From an uncultured Granulosicoccus sp. (GTDB lineage: Bacteria; Pseudomonadota; Gammaproteobacteria; Granulosicoccales; Granulosicoccaceae), in the NCBI GenBank assembly GCA_937991945.1, contig CALKLO010000040.1, positions 1 through 33,856 on the forward strand: a stretch of 33,856 nucleotides of DNA. The letters run 5' to 3'. This document shows, in pieces, positions 2,859 to 26,220 of this stretch. The notes under the pieces were generated by a model. That model saw only the letters and a list, made by a program, of their open reading frames with translations, did not search any database and was not told where the DNA came from. The position numbers were made by a program, and so were the translations under genes. Each line of letters begins with the position of its first letter. Position 1 is the first letter of the stretch.

Positions 2859-2941
2859 TCCGCAAAAAAATGCCAACACCGTTGGGCCTGTCAGTAGAAT
2901 CTAGGTGGCTATAAGGCTCACGTGTTAGAGGAGTGAATCAG

Positions 2942-3937: not shown

Positions 3938-3967
3938 CAGTATCAGTACTTTTGCAAAGGTCCATCC

Positions 3968-5140
3968 GTGAACATACTCCCCTATGGTCGACAAGAGATT
4001 ACTCAGGCTGACAAAGAGTCGGTTGCTCGTGTTTTGCAATCAGACTTCATTACTCAGGGACCCGTAGTAGAACTATTTGAATCATCCATTGCCAGTTACT
4101 GCGGCTCTGCTCATGCGCTGGCTGTTAATAGCGCAACCTCTGCATTACATTTGGCTTGCCTTGCACTAGAGGTGGGGCCTGGCGATAACGTATGGACATC
4201 TCCTAACACGTTTGTGGCATCAGCTAATTGCGCGCGTTTGTGCGGTGCAGAGGTTGATTTTGTTGATATCGATCCTCGCACTTACAATTTGTGTGCTGAT
4301 GCCCTAGCCATAAAATTGAAAGCGGCTAGCGACTCTGGCGGCGTATTGCCTAAGGTGCTAATCGCCGTTCATTTTGCGGGACAGTCTTGTGACATGCTCC
4401 GAATTAGTCAACTCGCCGATGAATATAATTTTCGCGTCATTGAAGATGCGTCTCATGCCATCGGTGGACGCTATCTTGATAAGCCTATCGGTAATGGCGA
4501 GTACAGCGATATTTGTGTGTTTAGTCTGCATCCTGTAAAAATTATAACGACAGGCGAAGGCGGATTAGCACTGTGTAATGAGAGAGCTCTCCATGAGCGG
4601 ATGAAACTACTGCGTACTCATGGTGTCAATAAATCAAATAACGATACTGATGAGCCATGGCGTTACCAGCAAACAACACTAGGACTTAATTACCGATTGA
4701 CTGACATTCAAGCAGCGCTGGGTCTAAGTCAGCTTGAGCGATTAGATGCCTATGTGGCTCGAAGGCATGAGCTAGCAAGTCGTTATGATGCAGAGCTAAC
4801 AGGCATGGACTTGACACGGCCTTACCAGTCTAGTGATAGTTATTCAGCGTTGCATTTGTACCCGATTTTATCGTCTAGTAAAAATGGACAAGGTGACGAG
4901 CGCAGGCAGTTATATCACGCGATGATAAACCAAGGGATTGGTGTCAATGTGCACTACATACCTGTGCATTCTCAGCCCTATTATCAGGCTCTGGGTCATC
5001 GGTTGGGGGACTACCCACAGGCTGAGGCTTACTACAATAGAACCTTGTCTTTACCCATCTTTGGCTCCATGAAGAACCAAGAACAAGATCGGGTTATTGA
5101 AGCATTGCTAGCCTCGCAGCATCTTGCAAAAGCAGCCTAA
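3968..5140 (+). CDS. pseC: PseC, UDP-4-keto sugar aminotransferase
   Basis: Second pathway enzyme. It transfers an amino group to C4 of the PseB product, giving UDP-4-amino-4,6-dideoxy-N-acetyl-beta-L-altrosamine, with PLP as cofactor. The protein is 390 residues, the usual size for DegT/DnrJ/EryC1 sugar aminotransferases. It shows NSATSALHLA for phosphate binding, IEDASHAIGG (Asp160) for the pyridine nitrogen, and FSLHPVKIITTGEGG with the Schiff-base Lys191. The start is a GTG preceded by AAAGG at 3956-3960. It pairs with pseB in an operon. The stop codon abuts the stop of the convergent Maf gene with no gap, and a shared hairpin spans the junction. Confidence 0.94.
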   Translation: MNILPYGRQEITQADKESVARVLQSDFITQGPVVELFESSIASYCGSAHALAVNSATSALHLACLALEVGPGDNVWTSPNTFVASANCARLCGAEVDFVDIDPRTYNLCADALAIKLKAASDSGGVLPKVLIAVHFAGQSCDMLRISQLADEYNFRVIEDASHAIGGRYLDKPIGNGEYSDICVFSLHPVKIITTGEGGLALCNERALHERMKLLRTHGVNKSNNDTDEPWRYQQTTLGLNYRLTDIQAALGLSQLERLDAYVARRHELASRYDAELTGMDLTRPYQSSDSYSALHLYPILSSSKNGQGDERRQLYHAMINQGIGVNVHYIPVHSQPYYQALGHRLGDYPQAEAYYNRTLSLPIFGSMKNQEQDRVIEALLASQHLAKAA

Positions 5141-5155
5141 TTAGGCCGCTTTTTT
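5128..5155. terminator. Bidirectional intrinsic terminator between pseC and maf
   Basis: The stem AAAGC-A-GCCTAA / TTAGGC-C-GCTTT has one mismatch. It is followed on the plus strand by T6 and on the minus strand by T4. It overlaps both stop codons and therefore lies inside the last codons of both convergent genes. It probably ends both transcripts. Confidence 0.72.
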
Positions 5156-7678: not shown

Positions 7679-7857
7679 TGAACCGTTACGCGGAAAACTA
7701 GACCAATACCGTTACCGTTAAGGTTCAATGTCTCTGCCAACACCTACATTTGTTGATATCCGATGGGTTACTTTTGCTAGAGCTTGTGAACACACGGCAT
7801 GCGTTTGGCAACGTCATGGTTACATCTGTTTCCAAATAGTGATTTTGGGTAAATTTC

Positions 7858-8562
7858 ATGACGCTCTGCATTATTCCAGCAAGGGGTGGATCTAAACGAA
7901 TCCCCAAAAAGAACATCCGCACCTTTGCGGGAAAACCGATGATTTTATGGTCAATCGAAGCTGCGCAAAAAACAGGCTGTTTTGAACAAATAATTGTGTC
8001 AACTGATTGTGAAGAAATTGCTCGTATCGCCGAAGAGGCGGGTGCCTTAGTTCCTTTCCGACGACCCGTAGACTTAGCGGATGATCATGCCTCTACCATG
8101 GCTGTGGTTACACACGCTATCGAATGGGCAAGCAGTCAATTTACTGAATTTAACGATGCGCAATTACCGGTGTGTTGCTTGTATGCAACCGCACCTTTCG
8201 TTCAAGCTGACGATATACGGCAAGGTTTGAGTCTTTTGACGAACAATGACTTCGTCATACCCGTGACAACGTTTGCACACCCGATACAACGGGCAGTCAA
8301 AGTAGGTGCTAACGGATGCTTGGAGATGTTTGATCCCGTGTTGTACGCATCGCGAAGCCAGGACTTAGAGGAAGCATGGCATGACTGTGGTCAGTTTTAC
8401 TGGGGCACGTCAGATGCTTGGAGCCAAGGTAGGTCGCCTTACGAAGGAACGAGTTGTCCGTTACCTATTCCCCGTTGGCGTGTGCAAGACATAGATACGG
8501 AGGAGGACTGGGTCGCTGCAGAATTACTGTTTGAGTCTCTGGCAATGCGCAGAGCTGCATAA
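7858..8562 (+). CDS. pseF: PseF, pseudaminic acid cytidylyltransferase
   Basis: Last step of activation: it transfers CMP from CTP to pseudaminic acid to give CMP-Pse, the Maf donor. The CMP-sialate-synthetase signature IPARGGSKRIPKKN is at residues 6-19, followed by PMILWSIEAAQ and IIVSTDCEEIA. The 234-residue length matches PseF. The acidic metal-binding C-terminal motif DIDTEEDW is present. It stands alone on the plus strand, with its stop directly abutting the stop of the convergent methyltransferase gene. The 179-base gap to maf must hold both divergent promoters; no confident -35/-10 pair stands out there. Confidence 0.94.
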   Translation: MTLCIIPARGGSKRIPKKNIRTFAGKPMILWSIEAAQKTGCFEQIIVSTDCEEIARIAEEAGALVPFRRPVDLADDHASTMAVVTHAIEWASSQFTEFNDAQLPVCCLYATAPFVQADDIRQGLSLLTNNDFVIPVTTFAHPIQRAVKVGANGCLEMFDPVLYASRSQDLEEAWHDCGQFYWGTSDAWSQGRSPYEGTSCPLPIPRWRVQDIDTEEDWVAAELLFESLAMRRAA

Positions 8563-9201
8563 TTATTGCTGAGGTTCTTTATAAACGTACATGGCAAATT
8601 CAAATGGGTAGCCATTTTCGCTTAGCGCATAGTCATGTCGTAGTACAGGATGGCCTCCTAGTTCATTTTTACAAAATGCAAAAACCTGCATAGGGTCCAC
8701 GTAGTATAGGTTTTCATCGTAGTAGTCGACATACGTTGACATTGCATTGAAAGAAATGCCCTTGTTAGCGGCGCTAAACATGCGCTGCAACGTTTCCTGC
8801 ATAAATGCTAAGTTGTTGTCCATGCGGTTGTTAAATACACCTGAGAGCAACGCGTAATCGGTTCCCGTTGGCAGAGGCTCGAGCCCGCTTGCTAGTGAAA
8901 TAGTGACGTTTTTATCATCTCGAAAACTGTTCGCAGCCATTTCTACAAACTCAGGAACGATATCAACACCGACGTATTTGCCTGAGAAACCGGCCGATTT
9001 CAGATAGTAATAAAGATGACCCAGGCCGCACCCTACATCGAGTACAGACGATAGCGGAGAGGCAACTTCACTAAGAACCTTGAATCGAGCAAATTGACTT
9101 TCTGCATCTCGATATTGGAGAGCTTGGGGGGAATCTCCGTGCTCGGCCAGCAACGATTGGTAGTGCTCGATGAGCTCAGTTTGTTCCTTCTCAAAAGTCA
9201 T
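8563..9201 (-). CDS. SAM-dependent class I methyltransferase
   Basis: The 212-residue protein has motif I VLDVGCGLGHLYYYLK (about residues 50-66) and the acidic strand-2 end YVGVDIVPEFV, both diagnostic of SAM-binding Rossmann methyltransferases. A later ALLSGVFNNRMDN segment resembles motif IV. The substrate is not evident. It is last in the pseG-pseI-wbqC-FAD-methyltransferase run and its start overlaps the stop of the FAD gene by 4 bases (ATGA), which implies translational coupling. An O- or N-methylation of the nonulosonic acid or of another surface sugar is a reasonable inference from position only. Confidence 0.85.
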   Translation of the reverse strand: MTFEKEQTELIEHYQSLLAEHGDSPQALQYRDAESQFARFKVLSEVASPLSSVLDVGCGLGHLYYYLKSAGFSGKYVGVDIVPEFVEMAANSFRDDKNVTISLASGLEPLPTGTDYALLSGVFNNRMDNNLAFMQETLQRMFSAANKGISFNAMSTYVDYYDENLYYVDPMQVFAFCKNELGGHPVLRHDYALSENGYPFEFAMYVYKEPQQ

Positions 9202-10571
9202 TGTAAAGTTACGCTAAGTTGTTCATTAAAATATTTGATAAATGCTGCACGTCCACGGCTACCGGCATCGATATGGGCAATGCGTGGATGCAAGGTTTCG
9301 CGTTGCTGTTTGATACGGGCGTGCTCTGTCGCCCATTCGCTCGTGGGCAGTGTAAAAGCGACTGGTATGTTCCAACAGCACGCATCCAGATATTCGCAAT
9401 CCGTTTGAATATACCCGGATGTTTTACAATCTTCCCAGACACGTTCAAGCATAGATGATTCCATCAATGATGCTTGGTCACTTGGTTGTGCAGGAACTTC
9501 TGCCATAACTACCGTCAAATTCTTGTTGGGCTGTTGTTGGCTGTAGACGCCAGGTCTGCTGTATCGGTAGGGGAGTCGCTGAGTCGAGTAATCATGTAAA
9601 TAATCAGGGCCTATAACAGCAGCCGAGGGGACCTCGAAAGCATAAATACAATATCCAACGGGTAAAAGTTTAGTCACGGTGGTGTCGGCAATGCCCGTTA
9701 TCTTGGATAGCAGGTGGTCTGGTAGCGTCCAGAGCAGCGAGTCGCCTGATACGTGTTCTTGGGCAGTCTTAACAGTGATAGAGGTGGAGTCGGATTCAAT
9801 GGCTTCAACCGCGCTATTAAACTGAAGGTCTACCCCCAACTCTTGTAAACGTACTGTTGCCCGATCACAAAACCCTCCTAGGCCATGTTGTGCTGGATAG
9901 GCGAACCGAGCGGCTGTGATGTCCCCTGCAAAACGAGTGTCGCCGCAATGCCGCGTGACACCTAGGCGGGCGTTAAGAAACTCAGAAGATTCCTTACAGC
10001 GAATCATGGTGCTATCGTCAGCGAGTTTGGGCCGTAGCAACATAGACAGTGTGTTTTTGCCAGCGGAGCTAATTTGATGGGTATGGCCCCCGGTGATTTT
10101 TTCTAATATCGGGTGTATTGCCGCACATAGGCTGGGGCCATATGAAGCTTCGTACCATTCTAGAAAGGTTTGATTGCACGTTTCAGACAGGTAGCTTGTT
10201 TGCTTTTTTAGATCTGAAATTTCGCTCAAAGCGGTGAGGGCTAGGGGCATGTTGTCGATGCTAAAGTCTGGCATCTCGAAGCCAAGGGTATAGGTAGTGT
10301 CAGTGGTGCTGGCCCAATCGTGATTGTTAAGTATGCTTAACTCATCTTGCAATATATCAGAGTAAAACTCATAGGCATCCTCACTCCTGATATCCAAGTT
10401 GTGTGTGCCGTTGTCCAGCCAGTAACCGTTCCACTGGCGTGACCTCATAACCCCACCCAGAGAATCGCTAGCCTCTAGCAAGCACACTTTTTTTCCAGAT
10501 TTTGCTAACCGCCACGCTGCGTAGATTCCGGGGAATCCGCCGCCTGCGATAATGCAATCAGTGTGCTTCAC
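9198..10571 (-). CDS. FAD-dependent NAD(P)-binding oxidoreductase, amine-oxidase/UGM-like
   Basis: The 457-residue protein starts with a dinucleotide-binding motif IIAGGGFPGIYAAWRLA, then VCLLEASDSLGGVMRS, the typical FAD-binding N-terminus of the amine oxidase/protoporphyrinogen oxidase/UDP-galactopyranose mutase superfamily. GLGGFCDRATVRLQELGVD matches the region that builds the active-site cavity in this superfamily. There is no signal peptide, so it is cytoplasmic. The reaction is unknown. Being between a WbqC-like gene and a methyltransferase, and coupled to the latter, suggests oxidation or isomerisation of a sugar intermediate. The start is GTG with AAGGG a few bases upstream. Confidence 0.8.
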   Translation of the reverse strand: MKHTDCIIAGGGFPGIYAAWRLAKSGKKVCLLEASDSLGGVMRSRQWNGYWLDNGTHNLDIRSEDAYEFYSDILQDELSILNNHDWASTTDTTYTLGFEMPDFSIDNMPLALTALSEISDLKKQTSYLSETCNQTFLEWYEASYGPSLCAAIHPILEKITGGHTHQISSAGKNTLSMLLRPKLADDSTMIRCKESSEFLNARLGVTRHCGDTRFAGDITAARFAYPAQHGLGGFCDRATVRLQELGVDLQFNSAVEAIESDSTSITVKTAQEHVSGDSLLWTLPDHLLSKITGIADTTVTKLLPVGYCIYAFEVPSAAVIGPDYLHDYSTQRLPYRYSRPGVYSQQQPNKNLTVVMAEVPAQPSDQASLMESSMLERVWEDCKTSGYIQTDCEYLDACCWNIPVAFTLPTSEWATEHARIKQQRETLHPRIAHIDAGSRGRAAFIKYFNEQLSVTLQ

Positions 10572-10583
10572 CTTGTTGTCCCT

Positions 10584-11321
10584 TTACGCCGCATTTGCTA
10601 AGGCGAGTTGTTCAATGGTTAGCGGGGCATCATTGCCTGATTGGATAACTTCAAGGAGCTTGTCTGGTCCAACCCAAGATAACGCATCCAAACACCCCAT
10701 ATGCGGCAGAAATGCGCCTGAGCCTTGACCATATTCAGGGTGTTTGTAGGTTTGAAAGGACAAGCTCACGCTACTATTCGCGAAGGGGTTGTTTTGTTTT
10801 AAATAATTAAACGAGCCCACGGGTGATAAGTAGTTTTCGGCATTGAGATGTTTGCAAAATGCCAGTAATCGTTCTGTTTTCTCTTGTGCTTCAACCTCAA
10901 GAGAGGACGCTAAAATTCGTTGCGTTTGAATTCCACATGCTCTGGCTACTCGATTAATGATGCCTGTGTTAAATCGGGCTAGGAAGTCTTCTGACTCACT
11001 GTAGGCATTTTCCACAATAGATTCGCAGAGTGAAAAATAGGGTGCTTTTCCTAAATTTCCCTCTAATGTTTTCATGAATTTTGTGTGGTTATGTGTTTCA
11101 GATATCTTCACATCTTTTATGCGGTTTGTCGTTGTTACTTTGTTGACAGGTAAAGACAACATCAACTCACCTTGCAGGGTTTTTATCCTATTTCGAGATT
11201 GCCAGCTTCGCTTAACGTACTGCACATCATCAAGATAGATAAAGGTATCAACGGAATCCATCAGTGCAAAGTAACCCAACCAAGGCATCAAGGTTGGCTG
11301 CATGATGGCAACTGTCTTCAT
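10584..11321 (-). CDS. WbqC-family protein
   Basis: The 245-residue protein opens with VAIMQPTLMPWLGYFALMDSVD, followed by YLDDVQYVKRSWQSRNRIK, the hallmark N-terminus of the WbqC family found in O-antigen and nonulosonic-acid loci. The biochemical function of the family is not established. The start overlaps the pseI stop by 4 bases (ATGA), so it is translationally coupled to pseudaminic acid synthase. With no PseH visible in the locus, an acyl-transfer or aminoacyl-modification role on the amino sugar is a testable guess, not a conclusion. Confidence 0.85.
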   Translation of the reverse strand: MKTVAIMQPTLMPWLGYFALMDSVDTFIYLDDVQYVKRSWQSRNRIKTLQGELMLSLPVNKVTTTNRIKDVKISETHNHTKFMKTLEGNLGKAPYFSLCESIVENAYSESEDFLARFNTGIINRVARACGIQTQRILASSLEVEAQEKTERLLAFCKHLNAENYLSPVGSFNYLKQNNPFANSSVSLSFQTYKHPEYGQGSGAFLPHMGCLDALSWVGPDKLLEVIQSGNDAPLTIEQLALANAA

Positions 11322-12364
11322 GATGCTATGTCCGAGTAGCGGATAGGGTGACCGGCCTCGACGTTTGTTGTCAATTTTTGCCCAACCAGAGGCAGGTCGG
11401 TATTCGCTGGAATACCAGCGTTAGGCCTAACAAATCGGAAGTCTTGTTCAGTGATAGTGTGGCCTGCTGACAGCGCGTGTAAGGCGAAGGCTGATCGGCG
11501 CCCCTTTTCTCGAGAGACTAGCTCGGCGTCAGTTGTCCGCTTTTCGCTACTCCCTTTTAGTTGGTGTATTTGCTCTATACCTTCGGCAATCTGACGCATG
11601 ATCTCAGGGGTTGCAGAGAATCGATGATCTGGACCTTGTCGTGTGGCATCGTTAGTAAAGTGTTTTTCAATAGCGACAGCGCCCATGGAGGCTGCGGTTA
11701 GTGCCGCAAGCGAGCCAACAGTATGATCTGAATAGCCAACTTCTCGCTTAAACGTATTACCTATGTTTAGCATGGCATTAAGATTTATCTGATCAATAGG
11801 AGCTGGGTAGGAAGAGCAGCAGTGCAGTAAAATAACGACTGAGGCATTGTTCTTGTCCAAGACTTCTAGCGCGTGTTCAATTTCGGGCAAAGTTGCCATT
11901 CCAGTAGACAGTATTATCGGCTTACCTGTTTGCGCAACCGTTGCTAACAACGCATCAAAGGTGAGTTCGAATGATGCAATTTTATAGAGGCTACAACCGA
12001 GCTCCTCAATAAAGTCTAGATCTCTAGGGTCGTAAATAGAGGTAAACGGGAGCAAGTTACGTTCTCGAGCTCGATCAAAAAGAGGCTTATGGAATTCCAT
12101 AGGCATGCAAGCACTCTGGTAGAGTTCGTGCAAATTCGTTTTGCCCCACACTGCATCGATTTGCATGGATGCGTGTTCGCTGCGTACCGTTAATGAGTCA
12201 GCGCTGTAAGTCTGAAGCTTTAAGCAGTCCCAACCGGTATCGGCTGCGATATCAACAAGTGCGAGTGCTTGCTCCAAGTCCTTATCATGATTAGCGCTGA
12301 CTTCAGCAATCAAAAGCGCTTTCTCGTCAGGGCCCAACACTTTGTTTTCTAGGTTGATTGGCAT
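11318..12364 (-). CDS. pseI: PseI, pseudaminic acid synthase
   Basis: It condenses 2,4-diacetamido-2,4,6-trideoxy-L-altrose with phosphoenolpyruvate to form pseudaminic acid. The NeuB-type TIM barrel begins LIAEVSANHDKDLEQAL and contains LKLQTYSADSLT, ILSTGMATL and VGYSDHTVG. An antifreeze-like SAF domain occupies about residues 288-348 (FRFVRPNAGIPAN). The length of 348 is normal. An AAGGAC Shine-Dalgarno precedes the ATG. It follows pseG by 20 bases and is coupled to the wbqC-like gene downstream. Confidence 0.94.
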   Translation of the reverse strand: MPINLENKVLGPDEKALLIAEVSANHDKDLEQALALVDIAADTGWDCLKLQTYSADSLTVRSEHASMQIDAVWGKTNLHELYQSACMPMEFHKPLFDRARERNLLPFTSIYDPRDLDFIEELGCSLYKIASFELTFDALLATVAQTGKPIILSTGMATLPEIEHALEVLDKNNASVVILLHCCSSYPAPIDQINLNAMLNIGNTFKREVGYSDHTVGSLAALTAASMGAVAIEKHFTNDATRQGPDHRFSATPEIMRQIAEGIEQIHQLKGSSEKRTTDAELVSREKGRRSAFALHALSAGHTITEQDFRFVRPNAGIPANTDLPLVGQKLTTNVEAGHPIRYSDIAS

Positions 12365-16285: not shown

Positions 16286-16309
16286 TGGTCTGATGGGGTG
16301 GTCAGGCCA
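16286..16309. terminator. Hairpin at the 3' end of the racemase gene
   Basis: The stem TGGTCTGA / TCAGGCCA (one G-T pair) has an 8-base G-rich loop and covers the racemase stop codon. It lies between two convergent genes. Neither side has a T-tract, so it may stabilise or weakly terminate rather than act as a strong intrinsic terminator. Confidence 0.3.
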
Positions 16310-16982
16310 AGTTATTGAAATCTTGATTTTGTTGCAACGCAGCCAAAGCACAGGCCATCCCGGTCGAGGCGGCAACACCATCAATGACGGGGATACCAAA
16401 CTTACGAGACAGTTTGTTGGGCAAGTCAGCCATCCCTGCACATCCAAGAACAATTGCACCACAGCCGTCTTCTTTTATAGCAACCTCTATTTCAGATGAT
16501 ATGCGTTGCTCGGCATCGCTGTTTGCAAGTTCGAGGTCCAATACAGGTACTTCACTAGCCCGAACATTCTTACAATAAGAACTCAAACCATAGCGGTTAA
16601 TGTTATCGCTTATGACGGGCACAGAAACTGACAGTGTAGTCACTACCGTAAAGGTATGACCTAGCATCATACTGGCATGGAATGCGGCTTCGCCAATACC
16701 TACCACGGGTTTGTCGGTTAAATGACGAGCCTCATAGATACCCGTGTCATCAAAGCAGGCCACTATGTACGCATCATAGTCTTGCCGTTGAGCTTTTTTG
16801 ATTTCATCTAACAGCGCCGGTAGGGCGGCCAGACCATCTTCGGGTCCTTGAATAGATGCAGGGCCAGACATAGATGTAATCCCAGTAAGCATGACAGAAT
16901 TAGGTGCGACGCTCCTAGCCACATTGAGCACTTTGTGTGTCATGGAGGCAGTGCTGTTTGGGTTGATAATCGCGATATTCAA
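16302..16982 (-). CDS. Asp/Glu/hydantoin racemase family protein
   Basis: The 226-residue protein starts IAIINPNSTASMTHKV and has the paired catalytic cysteines of the family in YIVACFDDTGIYEA and IVLGCAGMADLP, with VVGIGEAAFHASMML between them. This is the hydantoin racemase (HyuA/DCG1-like) branch of the aspartate/glutamate racemase superfamily. It is the last gene of the ABC transporter operon, 58 bases after the second permease. That suggests the imported compound is an amino-acid-like or hydantoin-like molecule that needs epimerisation. The start is TTG with a weak Shine-Dalgarno, so the exact N-terminus is less certain. Confidence 0.85.
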   Translation of the reverse strand: MNIAIINPNSTASMTHKVLNVARSVAPNSVMLTGITSMSGPASIQGPEDGLAALPALLDEIKKAQRQDYDAYIVACFDDTGIYEARHLTDKPVVGIGEAAFHASMMLGHTFTVVTTLSVSVPVISDNINRYGLSSYCKNVRASEVPVLDLELANSDAEQRISSEIEVAIKEDGCGAIVLGCAGMADLPNKLSRKFGIPVIDGVAASTGMACALAALQQNQDFNNLA

Positions 16983-17040
16983 AAGAGAGTCTCAAATGGT
17001 GTTGATAGTGAATTTGTGTTGTTTTGGTTTAAAGTAGCGA

Positions 17041-17856
17041 TTAGCTTGACGCACGTTTATTACTGATTATTTTGTAAATTACTGCGAATAGTGCAATCAC
17101 AATAAATGAGAAGACTGTAGTAAAAGTGCCTAAAGCAAAGAGGACGGGAGTAGTCACACTTGTGGTCATGCCGTAGATTTCTAATGGCAGCGTGTTGTAC
17201 GTTCCCGCTGTCAACAGCGTTCTCGCAAATTCATCGTACGAAAGAGTGAAACCGAAGAGAGCAACACCAATTAGACTTGGCCCGATTATAGGGAGCACGA
17301 CGTAGCGTAATGTTTGCCATGAAGAGGCACCAAGATCGCGTGCAGCCTCCTCGTATGCGCTGTCAAATCGGTTAAACACCGCGAACATAATCAGTAATCC
17401 AAACGGCAACGTCCAAGTTAGCTGCGATCCAAATCCTGAGCTTGCCCAATGTACATCCCAGTCAAGAATATTGAACAAAATACCCACACCGAGGGATATC
17501 AGAATAGAGGGAATGATCAGGCTTGTGATGGCTAGGTAGAAAATAATGGCAGAGCCTCTAAAGTGTTTTCTAAATGCCAACCCCCCCATAAGTGAGACGA
17601 TGGTGGTGGTGACCATGACAAGTAGGCCCAGCATGAACGAGCGTCGGAAGGAGCCCCATATGTCTCCTACCGCCTGTTGTTTGAATAGTTCGCCAAACCA
17701 ATGTAGAGAGACTCCGTTCATTGGGAAGGTTAGACCTCCTCGAGGTCCTTGGAACGATAAGATGGCAATGGTTATCGTTGGACCGTAGAGGAAGAGTACG
17801 AATACAGAAAAAAACGCTGTTAGTACGTAAAAGCTGAATGGGCGTTTGGAGTTCAT
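17041..17856 (-). CDS. ABC transporter permease, PotC-like
   Basis: An inner-membrane permease of 271 residues with about six hydrophobic segments and the EAA loop EEAARDLGASSWQTLRYVVLPIIGP, where the ATPase docks. The family is the spermidine/putrescine-type PotC group of MetI-like permeases. An AAGGAG Shine-Dalgarno 8 bases ahead of the ATG lies across the end of the upstream permease gene, and the intergenic gap is only 2 bases. The N-terminus FYVLTAFFSVFVLFLYGP is a typical first helix. Confidence 0.9.
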   Translation of the reverse strand: MNSKRPFSFYVLTAFFSVFVLFLYGPTITIAILSFQGPRGGLTFPMNGVSLHWFGELFKQQAVGDIWGSFRRSFMLGLLVMVTTTIVSLMGGLAFRKHFRGSAIIFYLAITSLIIPSILISLGVGILFNILDWDVHWASSGFGSQLTWTLPFGLLIMFAVFNRFDSAYEEAARDLGASSWQTLRYVVLPIIGPSLIGVALFGFTLSYDEFARTLLTAGTYNTLPLEIYGMTTSVTTPVLFALGTFTTVFSFIVIALFAVIYKIISNKRASS

Positions 17857-17858
17857 GG

Positions 17859-18722
17859 TTACAGCTCCTTTCTGATATCGACGAAACGCAGTAGGGTGCC
17901 AATCATAATAAGTACTGTGAGTAGTAATATAACGGCGCTTGCAGAGGCAGCTGGGTATTGCAAGAGGGATATCTCGTTGGATATGACCCTACCGACAGAA
18001 GCACTTTGACCACCGCTCATAAATCTCACGGTTATAAAGTCTCCCATGACGAGTGTAATGACAAAAATCGAACCGATCATGATGCCTGGCTTGGTCAAGG
18101 GAATGATGACGTTGCTAAGTACTTGCCATCCGGTTGCGCCCGCATCCACCGCGGCTTCGATTAATGATCGATCCAACCGCATCATTGAGTTGAAGATAGG
18201 AACAATCATAAAGAGCGTGAATAAGTGGACAAAAGCGAGGATTACGGCGAAGTCTGAAAATAGAAGCCACTCGAGCGGCTCATCTATTAGGCCTAGATCC
18301 TGAAGGGCATTATTAGCGATACCATTTCTACCTAAAAACGGTATCCAAGAAATCATGCGAATAATGTTCGATGTCCAAAATGGAACTGTACACAATAAAA
18401 ATAAACCAATTTGTACTGGCAATGAACGCACATGGAAAGCGAGAAAATAGGCGACGGTAAACCCAATGAGTAAACAACAGAGCCATGTGATGCCTGTGAA
18501 CATTAATGTTTTTAAATAGACGGACAACGTCACTGGCGACGTTAGCAAGAATTCATAGTTTTCAAATATAAACGCAGGTGAATAGCTGTATGCCGTTGAT
18601 TGCCAGAAACTCACAACAACTATTGCGAGTACTGGCAGCAAAAGAAAGAAGATGAGTATCAACGTCATTGGTGCGGCCAATAGCCACCCTAAGAGTGTGT
18701 TTTTAATTGATGTGGATGCCAC
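17859..18722 (-). CDS. ABC transporter permease, PotB-like
   Basis: An inner-membrane permease of 287 residues. The first helix is LLAAPMTLILIFFLLLPVLAIVVVS. The EAA motif EAAVDAGATGWQVLSNVIIPLTKPG is near residue 188, as in PotB-type permeases of polyamine, opine and related uptake systems. The start is GTG. It pairs with the PotC-like permease 2 bases downstream and follows the binding-protein gene after a 109-base gap that holds a strong hairpin. Confidence 0.9.
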   Translation of the reverse strand: MASTSIKNTLLGWLLAAPMTLILIFFLLLPVLAIVVVSFWQSTAYSYSPAFIFENYEFLLTSPVTLSVYLKTLMFTGITWLCCLLIGFTVAYFLAFHVRSLPVQIGLFLLCTVPFWTSNIIRMISWIPFLGRNGIANNALQDLGLIDEPLEWLLFSDFAVILAFVHLFTLFMIVPIFNSMMRLDRSLIEAAVDAGATGWQVLSNVIIPLTKPGIMIGSIFVITLVMGDFITVRFMSGGQSASVGRVISNEISLLQYPAASASAVILLLTVLIMIGTLLRFVDIRKEL

Positions 18723-18771
18723 GTTAGTTTCAGCGTTAGGTAATTAGGAGTACAAAGTTGGCGATGCACTA

Positions 18772-18813
18772 AAATTACAGCCAGTGTTATGAAAAACACA
18801 CTGACTGTAATTT
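18772..18813 (-). terminator. Strong hairpin between binding-protein and permease genes
   Basis: The 16-base arms AAATTACAG-C-CAGTGT and ACACTG-A-CTGTAATTT pair with a single mismatch around a 10-base loop. It starts 19 bases after the binding-protein stop. Such hairpins after solute-binding-protein genes (as in malE-malF) protect the upstream mRNA or partly terminate, giving an excess of binding protein over permease. The short T-run within the stem end would fit partial termination. Confidence 0.72.
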
Positions 18814-18831
18814 CCCTTATGAATTCATATC

Positions 18832-20136
18832 TTATGCAGCGATGAATTCGTTCCACTTACGAACCATATACTGGTTTTCATCCATGACTGAATTCCAGCA
18901 GGCAACCTTGCCCATACGCTCATCAAATGAACCACCATCTCGAACTGCACCAGCTTGTTCCATAACAACACCTTGAGGATTAACAATCTCTCCCTCAGCT
19001 GGTTTTCCTTCAAACCAGTATCCCCATTCGTCGGTGGACATGAAGTTCTTAGATGTCTCGGGTACTGCTGAATAGTAGCCTTGTCGCATGAGGTAGCCTC
19101 CAACCCATCCGGATAGATACCAGTTAATGTATTCGTATGCTGCATCGAGCTCCAAGCCAGATAAGTTCTTGGATAATCCAAGACCACCACCCCATGAGCG
19201 ATAGCCTTCTTCGAGTGGCTGGTAAACGCATGGGATACCTTTGGATCGCACTGCAGAGATAGCGGGTGACCACATAGATTGTATAACCACTTCCCCAGAT
19301 GACATCAGGTTGACTGACTCATCAAAAGATTTCCAGAAGGCACGGAATTGACCGTTCTTTTTGGCTTCAGTGAAAATAGCCATCGTTTGGTCTATTTCAT
19401 CGCGTGTCATGTTGCCCTTGTCACCGTAAGTGACTTCGCCCATCGCTTCGCATACCATTGCGGCGTCCATGATCCCGATAGAGGAGATGTCGAGAATAGA
19501 GGCTTTTCCTTTAAATTCTGGATTTAAAAGTTCTGCCCAACTCGTAATATCACGACCGATTAGATCAGGGCGTATGCCTAGAGTGTCGGCATTGTAGATA
19601 GTGGGAATAAGAGTCATCCAGCCTGACTCTTCATTGACGAAAGATTTCCCGTCGGGTCCATCCACAAATCCAACACTGTGCGGTGCAGTACCTTGGGCAA
19701 TAACACTATCAGGATTTAATTTTCCACTCCTAAATGTGCCAACAATTTTGTCGTAGTTGTCGATTCGAGAAGTGTCCATTGCTTGCAGATTTCCTGCAGG
19801 CCATACCTTTTTGCATATCCAGTATTCGATGTCCGCTATATCAAACGATTTTGGTTGTGTGGCGGCTCGTTGAGTGACGGAGTCAGAATCAAGAGAGGTC
19901 ATTTCAAGGGTAAAACCAAGGTCCTCTTTTACTTTGTCTGCTACGTCATTCAGATTCGACACACCAGTACCAAATTGTCTTAAGGTGATGTCCTTAATAT
20001 TCTGCGCCCAAATCATAGGAGCGCCACTGATGGTTCCAGCAGCAACTGTGGCTGCAGCACCTTTCATGAGTAAGCGGCGCTGCTTTCCAGTTTTTGTTAG
20101 ATTTGAGCGATGTGTTTTTTTGTTTAGTTCTCGCAT
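18832..20136 (-). CDS. ABC transporter solute-binding protein, Tat-type signal
   Basis: A periplasmic binding protein of 434 residues in the extracellular solute-binding family 1/PotD-like group. The N-terminus carries a twin-arginine motif Q-R-R-L-L-M-K at about residues 19-25, a hydrophobic stretch GAAATVAAGTISGAP and cleavage near IWA-QN, so export by Tat is likely. Conserved features include GWMTLIPTIYNADTLGI, SWAELLNPEFKGKASILD and WSPAISAVRSKGIP. A strong AAGGAG Shine-Dalgarno lies 6 bases before the ATG. It sits 81 bases after the ATPase gene. The substrate is unknown; acidic polyamine-site residues cannot be assigned by eye, and the racemase at the operon end argues against assuming spermidine. 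Confidence 0.88.
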   Translation of the reverse strand: MRELNKKTHRSNLTKTGKQRRLLMKGAAATVAAGTISGAPMIWAQNIKDITLRQFGTGVSNLNDVADKVKEDLGFTLEMTSLDSDSVTQRAATQPKSFDIADIEYWICKKVWPAGNLQAMDTSRIDNYDKIVGTFRSGKLNPDSVIAQGTAPHSVGFVDGPDGKSFVNEESGWMTLIPTIYNADTLGIRPDLIGRDITSWAELLNPEFKGKASILDISSIGIMDAAMVCEAMGEVTYGDKGNMTRDEIDQTMAIFTEAKKNGQFRAFWKSFDESVNLMSSGEVVIQSMWSPAISAVRSKGIPCVYQPLEEGYRSWGGGLGLSKNLSGLELDAAYEYINWYLSGWVGGYLMRQGYYSAVPETSKNFMSTDEWGYWFEGKPAEGEIVNPQGVVMEQAGAVRDGGSFDERMGKVACWNSVMDENQYMVRKWNEFIAA

Positions 20137-20217
20137 AGTTTTCTCCTTGCTTAAATTTTATGGCGTTAAAAATAGTCGTAAAAGTATTACTAATGGGTTT
20201 AGGTATATAAAAAAGAT

Positions 20218-21192
20218 TTACTCAAGCTTATGTAAATCCTGATGTGCCCATGTCACACCAATAGCATCACCAGCAGCTAGAGGCTGCTGCCTGAATTCTT
20301 TATCTGATATCGACAAAGTGATATCGGCTTGATCTGGATTTGTCACTGTTATTTCAACTTTAGCGCCTAGATACTCAACGAAACCAACGCATGCCTGTAG
20401 CAGGGCATTAGTCCGGCACAATCGTGTGTGGTCGGTCCGTAGAGCAAAACGCTCACCATGCATTTCAATGATGTTGTGCCCTCCCATAAAACGCGCTACA
20501 AATTCTGTTTTAGGGCGGTTGAATATCTCTTCTGGTGCGCCTGCTTGTTCAATAACAGCATTGTTCATAAGCACTACATGATCTGCCAACGCGAGTGCTT
20601 CTTCCTGGCTGTGCGTGACATGAACAAACGTAATGCCGAGTTCTTTTTGGAGTTTCGATAACTCGCTGCGCATGCGTACACGTAGGAACGGGTCTAGTGC
20701 GGATAAGGGTTCGTCTAGTAACAATACTGACGGCATAGAAATAAGTGCGCGAGCAAGAGCAACTCGCTGTTGTTGGCCGCCTGAAAGTTGTTCTGGAAAG
20801 CGTTTAGCGTAGGGTGTCATATCCACTAAGCTCAACAGTTCGTTCGCCCGTTTGATACGTTCTGCCTTCGGTAACCCACGCATCTTTAAGCTAAAAGCGG
20901 TATTTTCCTCAACCGTTAAATGTGGGAAGAGTGCGTAGTTTTGAAACATCATTGCAGTACCGCGTTTGGCAGGTGCTAACGAGGCAATATCCTTCCCATC
21001 AATCTGAATACTCCCTTTACTGACAGATTCATGTCCGGCAATCATTCGAAGAGTGGTTGTTTTTCCGCAACCTGACGGTCCAAGCAAGCACACATAGCTG
21101 CCGGGGGCGAAAGCCTGAGAGAAATCATCTACGGCAACAATATTTTTACCGTAGTGTTTTGTCACATTGCTTAATGTCAGCGAAATTGTCAT
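20218..21192 (-). CDS. ABC transporter ATPase, PotA-like
   Basis: The energising subunit of the importer, about 324 residues from the preferred start. Walker A GPSGCGKTT, Q-loop MMFQNYALFPHLTVEENTAF, signature LSGGQQQR, Walker B VLLLDEPLSALD and switch His in THSQEEA are all intact. A C-terminal TOBE-like regulatory region contains VGFVEYLGAKVEITVTNP. The longest frame begins at 21264, but the ATG at 21192 follows CGGGGAT and gives the normal start MTISLTLSNVTKHYG. The upstream 24 residues of the longer frame lie within repeats and look like leader DNA. It is first in the operon. Confidence 0.93.
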   Translation of the reverse strand: MTISLTLSNVTKHYGKNIVAVDDFSQAFAPGSYVCLLGPSGCGKTTTLRMIAGHESVSKGSIQIDGKDIASLAPAKRGTAMMFQNYALFPHLTVEENTAFSLKMRGLPKAERIKRANELLSLVDMTPYAKRFPEQLSGGQQQRVALARALISMPSVLLLDEPLSALDPFLRVRMRSELSKLQKELGITFVHVTHSQEEALALADHVVLMNNAVIEQAGAPEEIFNRPKTEFVARFMGGHNIIEMHGERFALRTDHTRLCRTNALLQACVGFVEYLGAKVEITVTNPDQADITLSISDKEFRQQPLAAGDAIGVTWAHQDLHKLE

Positions 21193-21203
21193 CGATCCCC
21201 GTG

Positions 21204-21227
21204 TTTGGTGCGTGCTTTTGGTGCGTG
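21204..21227 (-). repeat. Tandem direct repeat in the transporter operon leader
   Basis: Read on the plus strand, the 11-base unit TTTGGTGCGTG occurs twice with a 13-base period. It lies 12 bases or more upstream of the ATPase start codon, between the palindromes and the Shine-Dalgarno. It could affect leader structure or bind a regulator. Confidence 0.4.
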
Positions 21228-21250
21228 AATTTAGTGCTGTGCTTTTACTC

Positions 21251-21287
21251 AGTGCAAAAAACACTGTTTTTTAGGCGTTTTTGCACT
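21251..21287 (-). promoter_or_regulatory. Nested palindromes upstream of the transporter operon
   Basis: A perfect 10-base inverted repeat AGTGCAAAAA (21251-21260) and TTTTTGCACT (21278-21287) surrounds a second perfect palindrome, AAAAAACA-C-TGTTTTTT (21256-21272). They sit 60-95 bases upstream of the ATPase start, where an operator would be expected. The symmetry suggests dimeric transcription-factor sites. Alternatively it forms mutually exclusive RNA hairpins in the leader. Confidence 0.5.
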
Positions 21288-22011: not shown

Positions 22012-22548
22012 GTTCTCGGCTTCACTGATACGTGAAAGGGCTATGAATATCAGTGCGCAAAAAAGGTTGATGTTGTATTAATCGTATACAGCTCATCACA
22101 GTTGCCTAACTTCGTAGTTTTGACAACATACTTCCGGTACTTAACAGGTAAAGCGTATAGCGGGTGGTTCCTTGATGCTCCGATAGAGTGATTGCTCTAT
22201 ACGTTTAAGTACAATTTGCGGCTAAATCCTGCTGCAAAGCGCTAATCAGTTCCAACGCGGTTGAATATAATTAGACAAAAGGCTAGCTTGGGTGCGGGTG
22301 TTTCTTGAGATTCTGCTGGGCATCGGGTTTCCCATAGCGTTCGACAGTTTCGAAGTGCCCTCCGATTGTGTGCATTATATTTATGTAACCGACAGAATGA
22401 ACAGCTGCTGCCGCTAGTTAATAATGGGGGCATGTTCGCTTCCGTGGTGTGGCTAGATAATGATTAGACAGCTTTAGTGAGAGCGAGTTTTTCTTATCAT
22501 CCGTTATCTGTGACCGTCCGCGCCATGTTTACTATGGAGCGCATTGCT
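22012..22548. other. Long intergenic region upstream of the polyamine-sensor pair
   Basis: No coding sequence is supported in this 537-base gap; short frames on either strand lack start signals and motifs. A hairpin ATAGAG-TGATTG-CTCTAT lies at 22183-22200. A TTGACA hexamer stands at about 22119, but no good -10 is at a proper distance. The end of the region carries the GGAG Shine-Dalgarno for the following gene. The length is consistent with a regulated promoter. Confidence 0.4.
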
Positions 22549-23631
22549 ATGTGTGGACTGTTTGGTAACAAGCAAAAAAGTCGCCTAGGTCGACTATCGT
22601 TTATTGTTGGCGCATTCTTCATCTGCGTGGGGATGGCTGCTTCGGCGCACGCGCAGCAGCCTTTAAAAATATACACATGGTCAGAATACATAGACCCTGA
22701 GATAGTCGAAGAATTTGAACAAGAGTTTAATGCCGAACTGATCTTTAACTATTTTGAGTCTGATCAGGCGCGTGATGAAGAGCTGGCTGCAGTTGATGGA
22801 CGCGGCTACGACTTACTCATGATCAACAGTACACAAGTGGAACGCTACGGCAAGAGAGGCTGGTTGGAGCCCATTGATTGGGAGGCGATTCCTAACTCAC
22901 AGCATTTGGATCCGAAGTGGACAAATGCGTTTGCAAAAGTGAGTACCTATGCGGTGCCGTATTTCTGGGGCACGATGGGAATAGCGTATCGCAAAGATCT
23001 TGTTCCAGGCGGTTTTGATAGTTGGATCGATTTATTTAATCCTGACGAGGCGCTGCGCGATAAAATTGTCATGATCAGTGACTCAAGAGAACTCACTGCT
23101 CTTGCATTGAAAGCAAAAGGTCATTCGGCTAACTCAAGTAAGAGTAAAGATTTGAGTGATGCTCGCGAATTGCTGATGATACAAAAACCTTTTGTACAAC
23201 AATACGCCTACCCGAATATCAGTGAAGACTCCTCAATGCTTAGTGGCGACGTTTGGGTTGCTAGTATGTACAACGGTGATGCCATGGTTCTCCAAGATCA
23301 GGATGAAAATATTGCCTTTACGTTACCAACGGAAGGCGGGCTTATTTGGGTTGATTACTTTGCGGTGGCCAAAGCTTCTGAAAAAAAGGTGTTAGCACAC
23401 GCTTTTTTGGACTTCATCAATCGACCTAGCGTGGCGGCTCGACTGGCTGAATGGGTGTTTTATGCGTCACCGAATTTAGCGGCGGCTGAGTTAATGTCGG
23501 CAGAGTACATGGAAAACATGGTAATAAATCCTAATGAGGATGTACTGAAAAATTCAGAATTTGTTCAACCGCTACCACCACGTGCTCGAAAGAAAGTAAA
23601 CACGATAGGTGCGGAGCTATTCCGCGATTAG
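22549..23631 (+). CDS. Periplasmic polyamine-binding protein, PotD/NspS-like
   Basis: The mature protein begins QQPLKIYTWSEYIDPEIVEEFE, the classic PotD-family opening. It continues with YDLLMINSTQVERYGKRGWLEPID, VPYFWGTMGIAYRKD and ASMYNGDAMVLQDQ, all regions that line the polyamine cleft in this family. The longest frame begins with GTG at 22477. The ATG at 22549 is preceded by GGAG at 9 bases and gives a standard Sec signal peptide (LSFIVGAFFICVGMAASAHA), so it is preferred. No permease or ATPase gene is adjacent on this strand. Instead a GGDEF-EAL membrane protein follows 48 bases later, which suggests that it is a sensor subunit like V. cholerae NspS rather than a transport component. 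Confidence 0.88.
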   Translation: MCGLFGNKQKSRLGRLSFIVGAFFICVGMAASAHAQQPLKIYTWSEYIDPEIVEEFEQEFNAELIFNYFESDQARDEELAAVDGRGYDLLMINSTQVERYGKRGWLEPIDWEAIPNSQHLDPKWTNAFAKVSTYAVPYFWGTMGIAYRKDLVPGGFDSWIDLFNPDEALRDKIVMISDSRELTALALKAKGHSANSSKSKDLSDARELLMIQKPFVQQYAYPNISEDSSMLSGDVWVASMYNGDAMVLQDQDENIAFTLPTEGGLIWVDYFAVAKASEKKVLAHAFLDFINRPSVAARLAEWVFYASPNLAAAELMSAEYMENMVINPNEDVLKNSEFVQPLPPRARKKVNTIGAELFRD

Positions 23632-23679
23632 CGTTGGGTGACTGAGAAAAATGACGTTAAATAGGGTGTTAACTCTAGC

Positions 23680-26220
23680 GTGAAACTACAAGGCAAACTT
23701 GTTGTTGTTATTGGTATGGCTATCGTGGCTTCCATGCTGCTATTGGCTTCAGTAGTTTTTGCACAATTACGCCAGCAATCTGAACTCGACCTGATAAGTC
23801 AGATGACGTTGTTACTAGATCAAACACAACAACAAACTCAGTCATTCATCGCCAACACATCTGCGAATGCTCAGCTGTTCTCTAGTTCCAATTTGATGGA
23901 CCGTTATGTCCTAGTTGAGGACGAGGCAGAGCGATACGATCTCATGCAGCCTGCATTACTCAGACTTTTTACAAAGTACCAACAGGCCTACCCAGAGTAT
24001 CGTGAGCTTCGCTTAGTGTTGCCCGACGGCTATGAAGATACCCGTATAGCGCAATCTGGATTAGTCAATATAACCGAGGAAGAATACGACACCCCATACT
24101 TTCAAGAGCTACTCAATAGTGGGGATCAAAGGGTGACCACTATTCTTGAAAATCCAGATGATGGTCAAACAACATTGCTCGCGTCGGCTCCGATCTATCG
24201 TAAAGATATGAGCTCAACGGCCATTAGCGCTAAGCCAGTTTTGCGCGGATTCATGATAGTAACAGCAAGACTAAACTTGCTAGAGGGGCTGATTAAGAGC
24301 CAGAGAATAGGTAAGGCAGGGTATCTAGTAGCTGTGGATAGGCAGCAGCGTATTGTGTTCCATCCAAATGATTCAATGATTGGTAAGGATGCCAGCAGCC
24401 TGTTGACTCCGGTTGTTAATCTGGGGGCCTTATCATCTGATGCTGACAGTAGACAGGGAACAGTGCTTACCTATTTTGAAGAAGACCCAGTCTACGTACG
24501 TAAACGCTGGTTACACCAAGATTTATTGTTATTAAGTGTCATTCCAAGTACTGAATTCGAGGCGCTGAGCCAGAAGATTGCAATTTCTGTGGCCATAGTG
24601 TCTGTAGGTGCGATCGCCGTTATTTCAGTGATTCTCCTATTGTTATTGAGAACGCTGGTGGTGGCACCTGTACGTCAACTGCGAGAGCTTGCCATAGCAA
24701 TAGGGGAGGGGCGTGATGCTGACGTCTCTGATCGTAACCTGCAGCGCAACGATGAAATTGGTGATCTTGCTCGATCATTCCATGATATGCACACCATGCT
24801 AGGTCGCTCTATGGATGAGCTGCAACAGTCGCATGCGGAGATCGAACAGCTTGCCTATCGGGATAGCTTGACAGGTTTACCAAACCGCAGATTATTTCTC
24901 GAGATGCTGGAGCGAGCTATTCGTCGACCGAGTAGTTTGCACCCCTACAGTGCCATATTGTTTTTAGACCTCGATGACTTTAAGAAGGTTAACGATACGT
25001 TGGGTCATGAGGCTGGTGATATATTGTTGAGAAACGTAGCTCATCGACTCAGTGAGTGTGTGCGGGTACACGATATCATGACGCATGAATCGGCTGGTAG
25101 TGAAGATGTGAGTAATGATGGTGTAGTCGCTCGTTTGGGTGGTGATGAATTCATCATCCTGATTAATGATCTTCGAGAGCCCTCTGATGCCAGACTGGTC
25201 GCCGAACGCATACTTACAGCGATTAGAGAGCCTTTTATAGTATTGGAACAAGAGTTCGTAATAGGCACCAGTATTGGTATTGCGTCGAGCCCGGACAACG
25301 GGACAGATGTGGAAGCGCTTATTAAGTTTGCCGATACGGCTATGTATGAAGCCAAACGGCAAGACAAAAATACGTATCGGTTTTATGACGATGCAATGCA
25401 GTTGAGTCTTGTCGAGCGAGTGAGTCTTGAGCGCGATCTTCGTGTAGCTGTTAATGAAAATGCCTTAACGCTACATTTTCAGCCTCAGGTTGATACACGT
25501 ACAAAGGTTATTACCGGTGCGGAAGTATTAATTCGCTGGCAACACCCGGAGCGCGGTAACGTACCGCCAGATCAATTTATACCCATTGCAGAGGACATGG
25601 GGTTGATAGGGCCCTTAGGTGAATGGATAATCAACGAGACGTGTCGACAATGGTCTGAGTGGGAGCACATTGGCATAGAGCCCCCACGCTTGGCGTTAAA
25701 TGTATCGCAGCGGCAGTTCAAGCTTAGCAACCTGGTTGAGGTCATCAGTGATTCGTTGGAAAGAAATCAGGTTAGGGCTGATGCGCTTGAAATAGAAATT
25801 ACCGAATCGTGCATGATGGAAGCACCCACAGAAGTTATCGAGACGCTCAATACCATTCGTAATATGGGAGTTCGTATCGCTATGGACGATTTTGGTACAG
25901 GCTACTCATCACTGGGTGCGCTATCGTCATTACCCATCGATACGCTGAAAATAGATCGCTGTTTTATTACGGATGTTGGAATGGGCAAGTCCAACGAGAA
26001 AATCGTATCTGCCATTGTGTCACTGGCGCATAATCTGAATTTGGAAGTAGTCGCCGAGGGCGTAGAAACGCGTAACGAATATGAGTTTCTACTTAAAAAG
26101 GAATGCGAGACCTGTCAGGGATACTTGTTTAGTAAACCACTGCCTGTCGATGCAATGACGCAATTACTGGTGCGAGAAAAAGATCGTCTGACCCAGCTAT
26201 CGCATAAGCGAGCCAGTTAA
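23680..26220 (+). CDS. dCache-HAMP-GGDEF-EAL c-di-GMP enzyme, MbaA-like
   Basis: Inner-membrane protein of 846 residues. TM1 is at about residues 7-28. A periplasmic dCache-like sensor domain covers about 30-295, TM2 about 300-324 and HAMP about 325-378. A GGDEF domain has DLDDFKKVNDTLGH and LGGDEF (487-491), and an EAL domain follows to the end. The GGDEF motif is intact, with no RxxD inhibitory site in the expected place and a roughly 12-residue insertion (THESAGSEDVSND) just before it. In the EAL domain the signature reads E-V-L-I-R-W, keeping the metal-binding Glu. NVSQRQF, EITESCMM, MDDFGTGYSSL, DTLKIDRCFI and EGVET are all present, so both activities are plausible. The start is GTG. The upstream binding protein is its likely ligand-carrying partner. 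Confidence 0.92.
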   Translation: MKLQGKLVVVIGMAIVASMLLLASVVFAQLRQQSELDLISQMTLLLDQTQQQTQSFIANTSANAQLFSSSNLMDRYVLVEDEAERYDLMQPALLRLFTKYQQAYPEYRELRLVLPDGYEDTRIAQSGLVNITEEEYDTPYFQELLNSGDQRVTTILENPDDGQTTLLASAPIYRKDMSSTAISAKPVLRGFMIVTARLNLLEGLIKSQRIGKAGYLVAVDRQQRIVFHPNDSMIGKDASSLLTPVVNLGALSSDADSRQGTVLTYFEEDPVYVRKRWLHQDLLLLSVIPSTEFEALSQKIAISVAIVSVGAIAVISVILLLLLRTLVVAPVRQLRELAIAIGEGRDADVSDRNLQRNDEIGDLARSFHDMHTMLGRSMDELQQSHAEIEQLAYRDSLTGLPNRRLFLEMLERAIRRPSSLHPYSAILFLDLDDFKKVNDTLGHEAGDILLRNVAHRLSECVRVHDIMTHESAGSEDVSNDGVVARLGGDEFIILINDLREPSDARLVAERILTAIREPFIVLEQEFVIGTSIGIASSPDNGTDVEALIKFADTAMYEAKRQDKNTYRFYDDAMQLSLVERVSLERDLRVAVNENALTLHFQPQVDTRTKVITGAEVLIRWQHPERGNVPPDQFIPIAEDMGLIGPLGEWIINETCRQWSEWEHIGIEPPRLALNVSQRQFKLSNLVEVISDSLERNQVRADALEIEITESCMMEAPTEVIETLNTIRNMGVRIAMDDFGTGYSSLGALSSLPIDTLKIDRCFITDVGMGKSNEKIVSAIVSLAHNLNLEVVAEGVETRNEYEFLLKKECETCQGYLFSKPLPVDAMTQLLVREKDRLTQLSHKRAS

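Follow-up and report, generated by a model that had tools for sequence, protein, structure and literature searches.

A putative binding-protein-dependent cyclic di-GMP receptor of an uncultured Granulosicoccus and its place in a sensor branch with several output types

Introduction

LuxP–LuxQ, in which a binding protein docks on a two-subdomain periplasmic receptor with kinase output, and ScrB–ScrC of Vibrio parahaemolyticus, a binding-protein-coupled GGDEF–EAL system of similar architecture in principle, both rely on binding-protein families different from the one considered here. The subject of this study is a pair of plus-strand genes, one for a PotD-like periplasmic binding protein (positions 22549–23631) and one for a membrane receptor (23680–26220), on a 33,856-nucleotide stretch from an uncultured Granulosicoccus sp. 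(contig CALKLO010000040.1, assembly GCA_937991945.1). This stretch, referred to below as the window, is an entire contig of an assembly of 3.83 Mb that is 97% complete. The natural comparison for the pair is NspS–MbaA: in Vibrio cholerae there is evidence that, through the NspS–MbaA circuit, MbaA synthesizes cyclic di-GMP (c-di-GMP) with norspermidine and breaks it down with spermidine, and the responses are reported to need both MbaA catalytic domains (PMC8079147). The published picture of NspS–MbaA is of a c-di-GMP device, and a rare one, counted in 222 of the 16,076 complete proteobacterial genomes surveyed (PMC9993111). Binding-protein-activated diguanylate cyclases and phosphodiesterases have been discussed more generally, as have binding proteins able to activate several receptor types (PMC9602780).

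A preliminary description of the window had matched the pair to nspS–mbaA of V. cholerae. Our analysis finds that reading right in kind and too narrow in detail. We consider it likely that the pair is a two-gene, binding-protein-dependent c-di-GMP receptor, and its receptor appears, from sequence comparison, to belong to a branch that is separate from and wider than MbaA and is usually marked by the motif PxGxE[D/E]xR. We found no description of this sensor branch in a partial literature collection searched by titles and the starts of abstracts.

Results

Architecture of the binding protein and its receptor

The upstream gene (22549–23631) encodes a 360-residue NspS-like periplasmic binding protein of polyamine type. 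It occupies the open reading frame at 22477–23631, in which the ATG at 22549, with GGAG upstream by eye, is the likely start, and residues 1–35 (22549–22653) read by eye as a signal peptide ending in an AxA-type site (AHA before Q36), with a helix at residues 10–29 in the structure model. Pfam SBP_bac_8 matches the protein at 1.7e-25, and its top NCBIfam models are PotD (168.9 bits) and PotF (150.4 bits), whose cut-offs of 582 and 636 lie far above these scores. The model, with a mean predicted local distance difference test score (pLDDT) of 93.5, has the PotD/PotF fold, and its closest structures are polyamine-binding proteins of Listeria, Escherichia coli, Streptococcus, V. cholerae and Pseudomonas. 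Identity to the transport proteins PotD and PotF is about 24–30% in structure alignments, and sequence matches to solved PotD, PotF, SpuD and SpuE reach E values of about 1e-33 to 4e-47, compared with 2.4e-5 only for the solved γ-aminobutyrate (GABA) receptor 4eq7 (Atu4243).

A 48-bp intergenic gap (23632–23679), in which no terminator-like site is listed, separates this gene from a GTG-started gene (23680–26220) for an 846-residue receptor in which dCache_1, HAMP, GGDEF and EAL each score above their Pfam cut-offs, as the preliminary description had proposed. Residues 1–318 (23680–24633) comprise the first transmembrane segment (TM1), the periplasmic dCache sensor and the second transmembrane segment (TM2); the model of this region has a pLDDT of 90.8, and its matches in the PDB are largely dCache domains of chemoreceptors, of the histidine kinase vpHK1S-Z8 and of the Vibrio GGDEF-family protein 2p7j. 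The sensor-branch signature is present as PDGYEDTR at residues 115–122 (24022–24045), its P, G, E, D and R being invariant in an alignment whose other rows were retrieved by that very motif. The HAMP domain (residues 323–374; 24646–24801) is followed by the GGDEF domain (24853–25380), with its GGDEF motif at residues 487–491 (25138–25152), and by the EAL domain (residues 585–820; 25432–26139), in which the motifs NVS, ITES, DDFGTG, AEGVE and QGY were found by eye. With the catalytic residues read by eye, both catalytic motifs appear intact, and the first is GGDEF rather than SGDEF, as had been claimed. Two further features singled out earlier are real and turn out to be ordinary. The EAL signature does read EVL (residues 615–617; 25522–25530), and V. 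cholerae MbaA is reported to have EVL as well (PMC8079147). Before GGDEF, the stretch from ND..GH..GD.LL to RLGGDEF spans 34 residues where the same pattern measures 18 in seven other GGDEF proteins, giving 16 extra residues relative to the common length. This stretch measures 28–35 residues in every sensor-branch member matched by the pattern, 25–26 in three MbaA-type proteins (the fourth escaped the pattern) and 28–31 in GGDEF proteins lacking the branch signature (at L107, L108, L113 and L114 and in the first such protein at L091, the L numbers being our locus labels), so that the insertion is rejected as a special trait; it is the norm for the family and also present elsewhere.

A sensor-type rather than transport-type binding protein

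No transporter gene adjoins the pair on its own strand, and no permease or ATPase is encoded together with the binding protein. The minus strand carries, at 17041–21264 and beyond a lumazine-synthase gene, a PotABC-like ATP-binding cassette (ABC) transporter that comes with a binding protein of its own; the permeases of this transporter matched just themselves or each other at E 1e-3 across 102 loci, window included. At the six same-genus loci described below there was no match to the window transporter permeases or binding protein, to lumazine synthase, to the two family-2 glycosyltransferases or to the thiamine pyrophosphate enzyme; general ABC ATPases did match at two of them, nearest to oligopeptide types in L010 and to urea or branched-chain amino acid types in L011. 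The genome that carries the window encodes two further PotD-like proteins, each beside permease and ATPase genes, and both score above the window protein against the PotD model.

Sequence comparison supports the assignment of the window binding protein to a sensor type rather than a transport type. The binding-protein trees are quick and unrooted; in the first of them, 54 sensor partners and nine transport-linked proteins fell on opposite sides of one branch, and in a tree of 101 rows 16 transport-linked proteins were split from 82 sensor partners, including the NspS proteins of Sinorhizobium meliloti, Shinella and two Vibrio-type loci, with a Shimodaira–Hasegawa-like approximate likelihood ratio (SH-aLRT) of 99.1. 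Eleven signature positions, among them 228, 277, 291 and 326, were read from the first-tree set plus the two Vibrio-type sequences, and positions 75, 105, 119, 124, 221, 241 and 345, together with 72, were checked on a held-out set of 26 new sensor partners and seven new transport-linked proteins. R75, an acidic residue (D/E) at 72 and W105 each occurred in 26/26 sensor partners and 0/7 transport-linked proteins, W124 in 26/26 versus 1/7, and Y221 in 26/26 versus 2/7. Weaker positions were Y241 (10/26, the other 16 having F, versus 2/7), H119 (13/26 versus 1/7) and R345 (16/26 versus 0/7). Across the 16 transport-linked proteins, 15 have N72, 13 have W241 and none has R75 or an acidic residue at 72, whereas the window protein has D72, R75 and Y241. 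Three PotD-like plasmid proteins without an annotated adjacent transporter or receptor carry no sensor residues at 72, 75, 105, 124, 221 or 241 and group with the transport proteins, one of them pairing with E. coli PotD. Candidates for a docking contact between the two partners are R75 on the binding protein and PxGxE[D/E]xR on the sensor.

One sensor branch, several outputs

Behind the same type of sensor, the receptors carry different output domains. Among the 47 motif-retrieved receptors that are not truncated at a contig end, counting that of the window, Pfam assigns EAL to 34 and GGDEF to 35, HisKA with HATPase_c to 12 and a class III nucleotide cyclase to one; the GGDEF beyond the 34 belongs to a kinase–receiver–GGDEF protein at L085. 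The 32 receptors from the phylum scan described below comprise 26 histidine kinases, five SpoIIE-type phosphatases (L152, L157, L159, L170 and L175) and one cyclase. These counts omit four truncated proteins of the 50-locus set and two of the 34-locus set. On a tree of 93 sensor domains, from which nine duplicate loci were omitted, output type needs at least 11 changes, although the starred branches force only one to three per class. The branch appears to run parallel to canonical NspS–MbaA, with a PotD-like/dCache input used with several output types.

Conservation of the pair

At E up to 1e-60 the binding protein was found in 6 of 26 other genomes of the same genus, in 0 of 9 of the same family and in 0 of 21 of the same class. 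A receptor gene adjoins it on the same strand at all six same-genus loci, one receptor being truncated where its contig ends. Scanning 370 gammaproteobacterial genomes with a sensor profile located 13 places in 12 genomes, and eight of these places have a PotD-like neighbour (one internally shortened). The second scan took in 398 genomes of the phylum and located 35 places, all but one of them new, in 24 genomes; there a PotD-like neighbour, in one case divergent, was present in 28 of the 32 places away from contig edges. Of the 47 loci from both scans, 45 were assessable once L153 and L185 at contig edges had been omitted, and 36 of these have a PotD-like neighbour. Among fifty loci retrieved by the sensor motif, several of which recur across the sets, 48 had sufficient sequence upstream (L046 and L051 omitted), and 47 of these have a PotD-like neighbour, counting two that are fragments truncated at a contig end and one that is internally shortened. 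The search of related genomes that the preliminary description had called for therefore finds the co-occurrence kept, and chance adjacency of the two genes is rejected by it. A plasmid search with the window sensor gave no match.

Receptors of the branch that stand without a PotD-like neighbour are found at L031 (4309–6822), L036 (6416–8884), L038, L039, L040, L155, L179, L180 and L184, and six of these nine are also without the P.G.E[DE].R signature. Of the 36 sensors that have such a neighbour, 33 carry the signature, versus 3 of the 9 that have none (Fisher p 0.0007). Since the loci are related, we regard this association as a lead only.

Two variations in gene number and length were seen at related loci. 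NspS-like genes stand in tandem directly upstream of one receptor at L053 (1369–4985), L058 (1569–4985), L052 (2774–4986) and L062 (2824–4997), three genes in each of two Halomonas loci and two in each of two Marinobacter loci, as if several binding proteins fed one receptor. Shortened NspS-like frames lie directly upstream of an open receptor frame at L065 (4500–4985; Halomonas sp. M20) and at L024 (708–1154), and in both the N-terminal ~110 residues and the C-terminal tail are kept and the middle of the protein is gone.

Comparison with NspS–MbaA

The comparison was made through sequences of S. meliloti, Shinella and the two Vibrio-type loci rather than V. cholerae's own; the latter are labelled Vibrio-type for their SGDEF and a neighbour that looks pheA-like by eye, with EVL read in one of them and gene overlap in one, a pattern taken from PMC9993111. 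As in the NspS–MbaA pairs of V. cholerae and S. meliloti, the window has a PotD-like gene directly upstream on the same strand with no transporter gene alongside, a membrane GGDEF–EAL protein with HAMP and a longer stretch before GGDEF, and the binding proteins fall on the same side of the tree. Over 342 columns, S. meliloti NspS and the window protein share 32% identity, and all eight NspS contact positions are identical between the two (W44, D72, D88, F139, Y241, D244, W267 and D269). The eight norspermidine contact residues and their conservation in S. meliloti NspS are given in PMC9993111 from a homology model, and we placed them on the window protein through the S. meliloti sequence, by order and spacing. 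R75 is common to all four MbaA-type NspS proteins, D72 to three and W105 to none. In the best tree these four nest within the window-type rows, and a single window-type clade is not rejected (approximately unbiased test, p-AU 0.586).

The receptors differ more. S. meliloti MbaA is 30% identical to the window receptor over 540 columns, from TM2 through HAMP, GGDEF and EAL, but BLAST gave no meaningful similarity between the window periplasmic domain and the S. meliloti MbaA sensor. Profile comparison (hhalign) with four MbaA-type sensors aligned 86 N-terminal columns, covering TM1 and the first long helix, at probability 95.1 and E 3.3e-8; in the sequence alignment the MbaA-type sensors are without much of the membrane-proximal half. 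Because of this profile match, a remote common origin of the two sensors is likely, the rest of the domain having presumably diverged or been rebuilt, and plain orthology of the receptor with MbaA is unsupported. The window sensor is the larger, carries PxGxEDxR and is alignable only in its N-terminal part, its branch has other outputs, and the window has GGDEF where S. meliloti, Shinella and the two Vibrio-type proteins have SGDEF. The 48-bp gap likewise contrasts with the overlapping genes reported for V. cholerae and S. meliloti (PMC9993111), although overlap is not universal in the family: it is present in one of our two Vibrio-type loci, and the same source places the genes of Desulfuromonas, Moritella and Shewanella pairs 3–13 nt apart. 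When full-length S. meliloti MbaA served as the query, 19 of 384 genomes gave a match at E up to 1e-80; just two of these matches spanned almost the entire protein, and they are the Vibrio-type loci, which come from a single genus. A two-row profile of the S. meliloti and Shinella MbaA sensors found nothing in the 370 genomes, a set without a known positive, and hence carries little weight. The earlier match to nspS–mbaA accordingly holds for gene order, architecture, contact positions and side of the binding-protein tree, and gives way at the periplasmic domain, which is remote, and at the breadth of a branch with mixed outputs.

Elsewhere in the window

Within the minus-strand transporter region (16302–21264) the binding protein has 434 residues and is weakly like PotD, and an Asp/Glu racemase-family gene adjoins. 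Farther off, 2933–12364 holds genes for a NeuB-family sugar acid synthase, a cytidylyltransferase, a Polysacc_synt_2 protein and an MptE-like protein, which suggest a nonulosonic-acid locus, perhaps for flagellin glycosylation.

Discussion

We propose the following mechanism for the window pair. The PotD-fold protein would be secreted to the periplasm, where it may take up a polyamine-like cation and dock on the dCache domain of its membrane partner; docking would then move the transmembrane and HAMP segment and shift the balance between synthesis by GGDEF and breakdown by EAL. That the pair works like NspS/MbaA is, for a reading made at the level of sequence, well supported, and since the receptor keeps both catalytic motifs and its pairing with the binding protein is conserved, a V. 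cholerae-like logic is the best reading of it. Bifunctionality of the receptor in vivo and the direction of its response are predictions. The weakest step of the mechanism is the identity of the ligand. The genome gave no nspC match and its sole speE match is weak (27.5 bits against a cut-off of 249.55), so that the cell would have to obtain norspermidine, and spermidine perhaps as well, from its surroundings, tentatively so because the assembly is incomplete.

Several observations weigh against this proposal. The window sensor appears just remotely like the MbaA-type sensors available, and contact positions 44, 88, 267 and 269 are common in transport proteins too. The binding protein is accessory: at the strict cut-off, 20 of the 26 other genomes of the genus lack it, as do all nine of the family and all 21 of the class. 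The scan loci are clustered and far from independent, since 15 of the 24 genomes matched in the second scan belong to one family, and 9 of the 45 assessable sensors stand without a PotD-like neighbour. From the literature, the purified cytoplasmic domain of V. cholerae MbaA is reported as active only as a phosphodiesterase (PMC8079147). Three SBP_bac_8 proteins predicted for spermidine/putrescine are reported to have bound GABA and/or 5-aminovalerate, one of them also spermidine weakly, and to have shown no interaction with neighbouring sensor kinases (PMC11113362).

These binding data, together with the nspC and speE results, lend some weight to the view that the receptor mechanism is the one proposed and its ligand not a polyamine, GABA, 5-aminovalerate or another amine taking its place. 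The missing biosynthetic matches say nothing of external polyamines, however, the solved polyamine binders match the window protein far better than the GABA receptor 4eq7 does, and all eight NspS contact positions are conserved; we therefore hold a non-polyamine ligand to be unlikely. Somewhat less likely again is that the dCache domain binds a small ligand of its own directly and the binding protein merely modulates or buffers it: many of the dCache structures matching the sensor model do hold a small ligand, and the nine neighbourless sensors fit such a role, but pairing is kept at most loci, and with different output types. That the binding protein serves a transporter such as the minus-strand PotABC-like one, its place beside the receptor having no signalling meaning, was named as a refuting outcome in the preliminary description and is very improbable, for although it has the PotD fold, the PotABC-like genes start 1.3 kb away and ABC ATPase genes lie within the retrieved stretch of some related loci (L010, L011, L073, L074 and L185; those in L011 stand 0.4 kb upstream of the binding-protein gene and share its strand), the window transporter has a binding protein of its own and permeases unmatched outside the window among the 102 loci compared, the ATPases of L010 and L011 are of other types, receptor adjacency recurs across classes, and R75 and acidic 72 are missing from 16/16 transport-linked proteins.

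For the family as a whole, we lean towards a model in which the sensor-type PotD-fold group and its dedicated dCache domain form a portable amine-input cassette that different lineages have connected variously to c-di-GMP turnover, to phosphorelays, to SpoIIE-type phosphatases and to class III nucleotide cyclases, with canonical NspS–MbaA as one diverged offshoot rather than the type case. The branch suggests that the arrangement known from NspS–MbaA is a more general input cassette, and a single interface between binding protein and receptor could then be examined in, and swapped between, several output chemistries. In the organism that carries the window, the pair would tie the c-di-GMP pool to amines in its surroundings.

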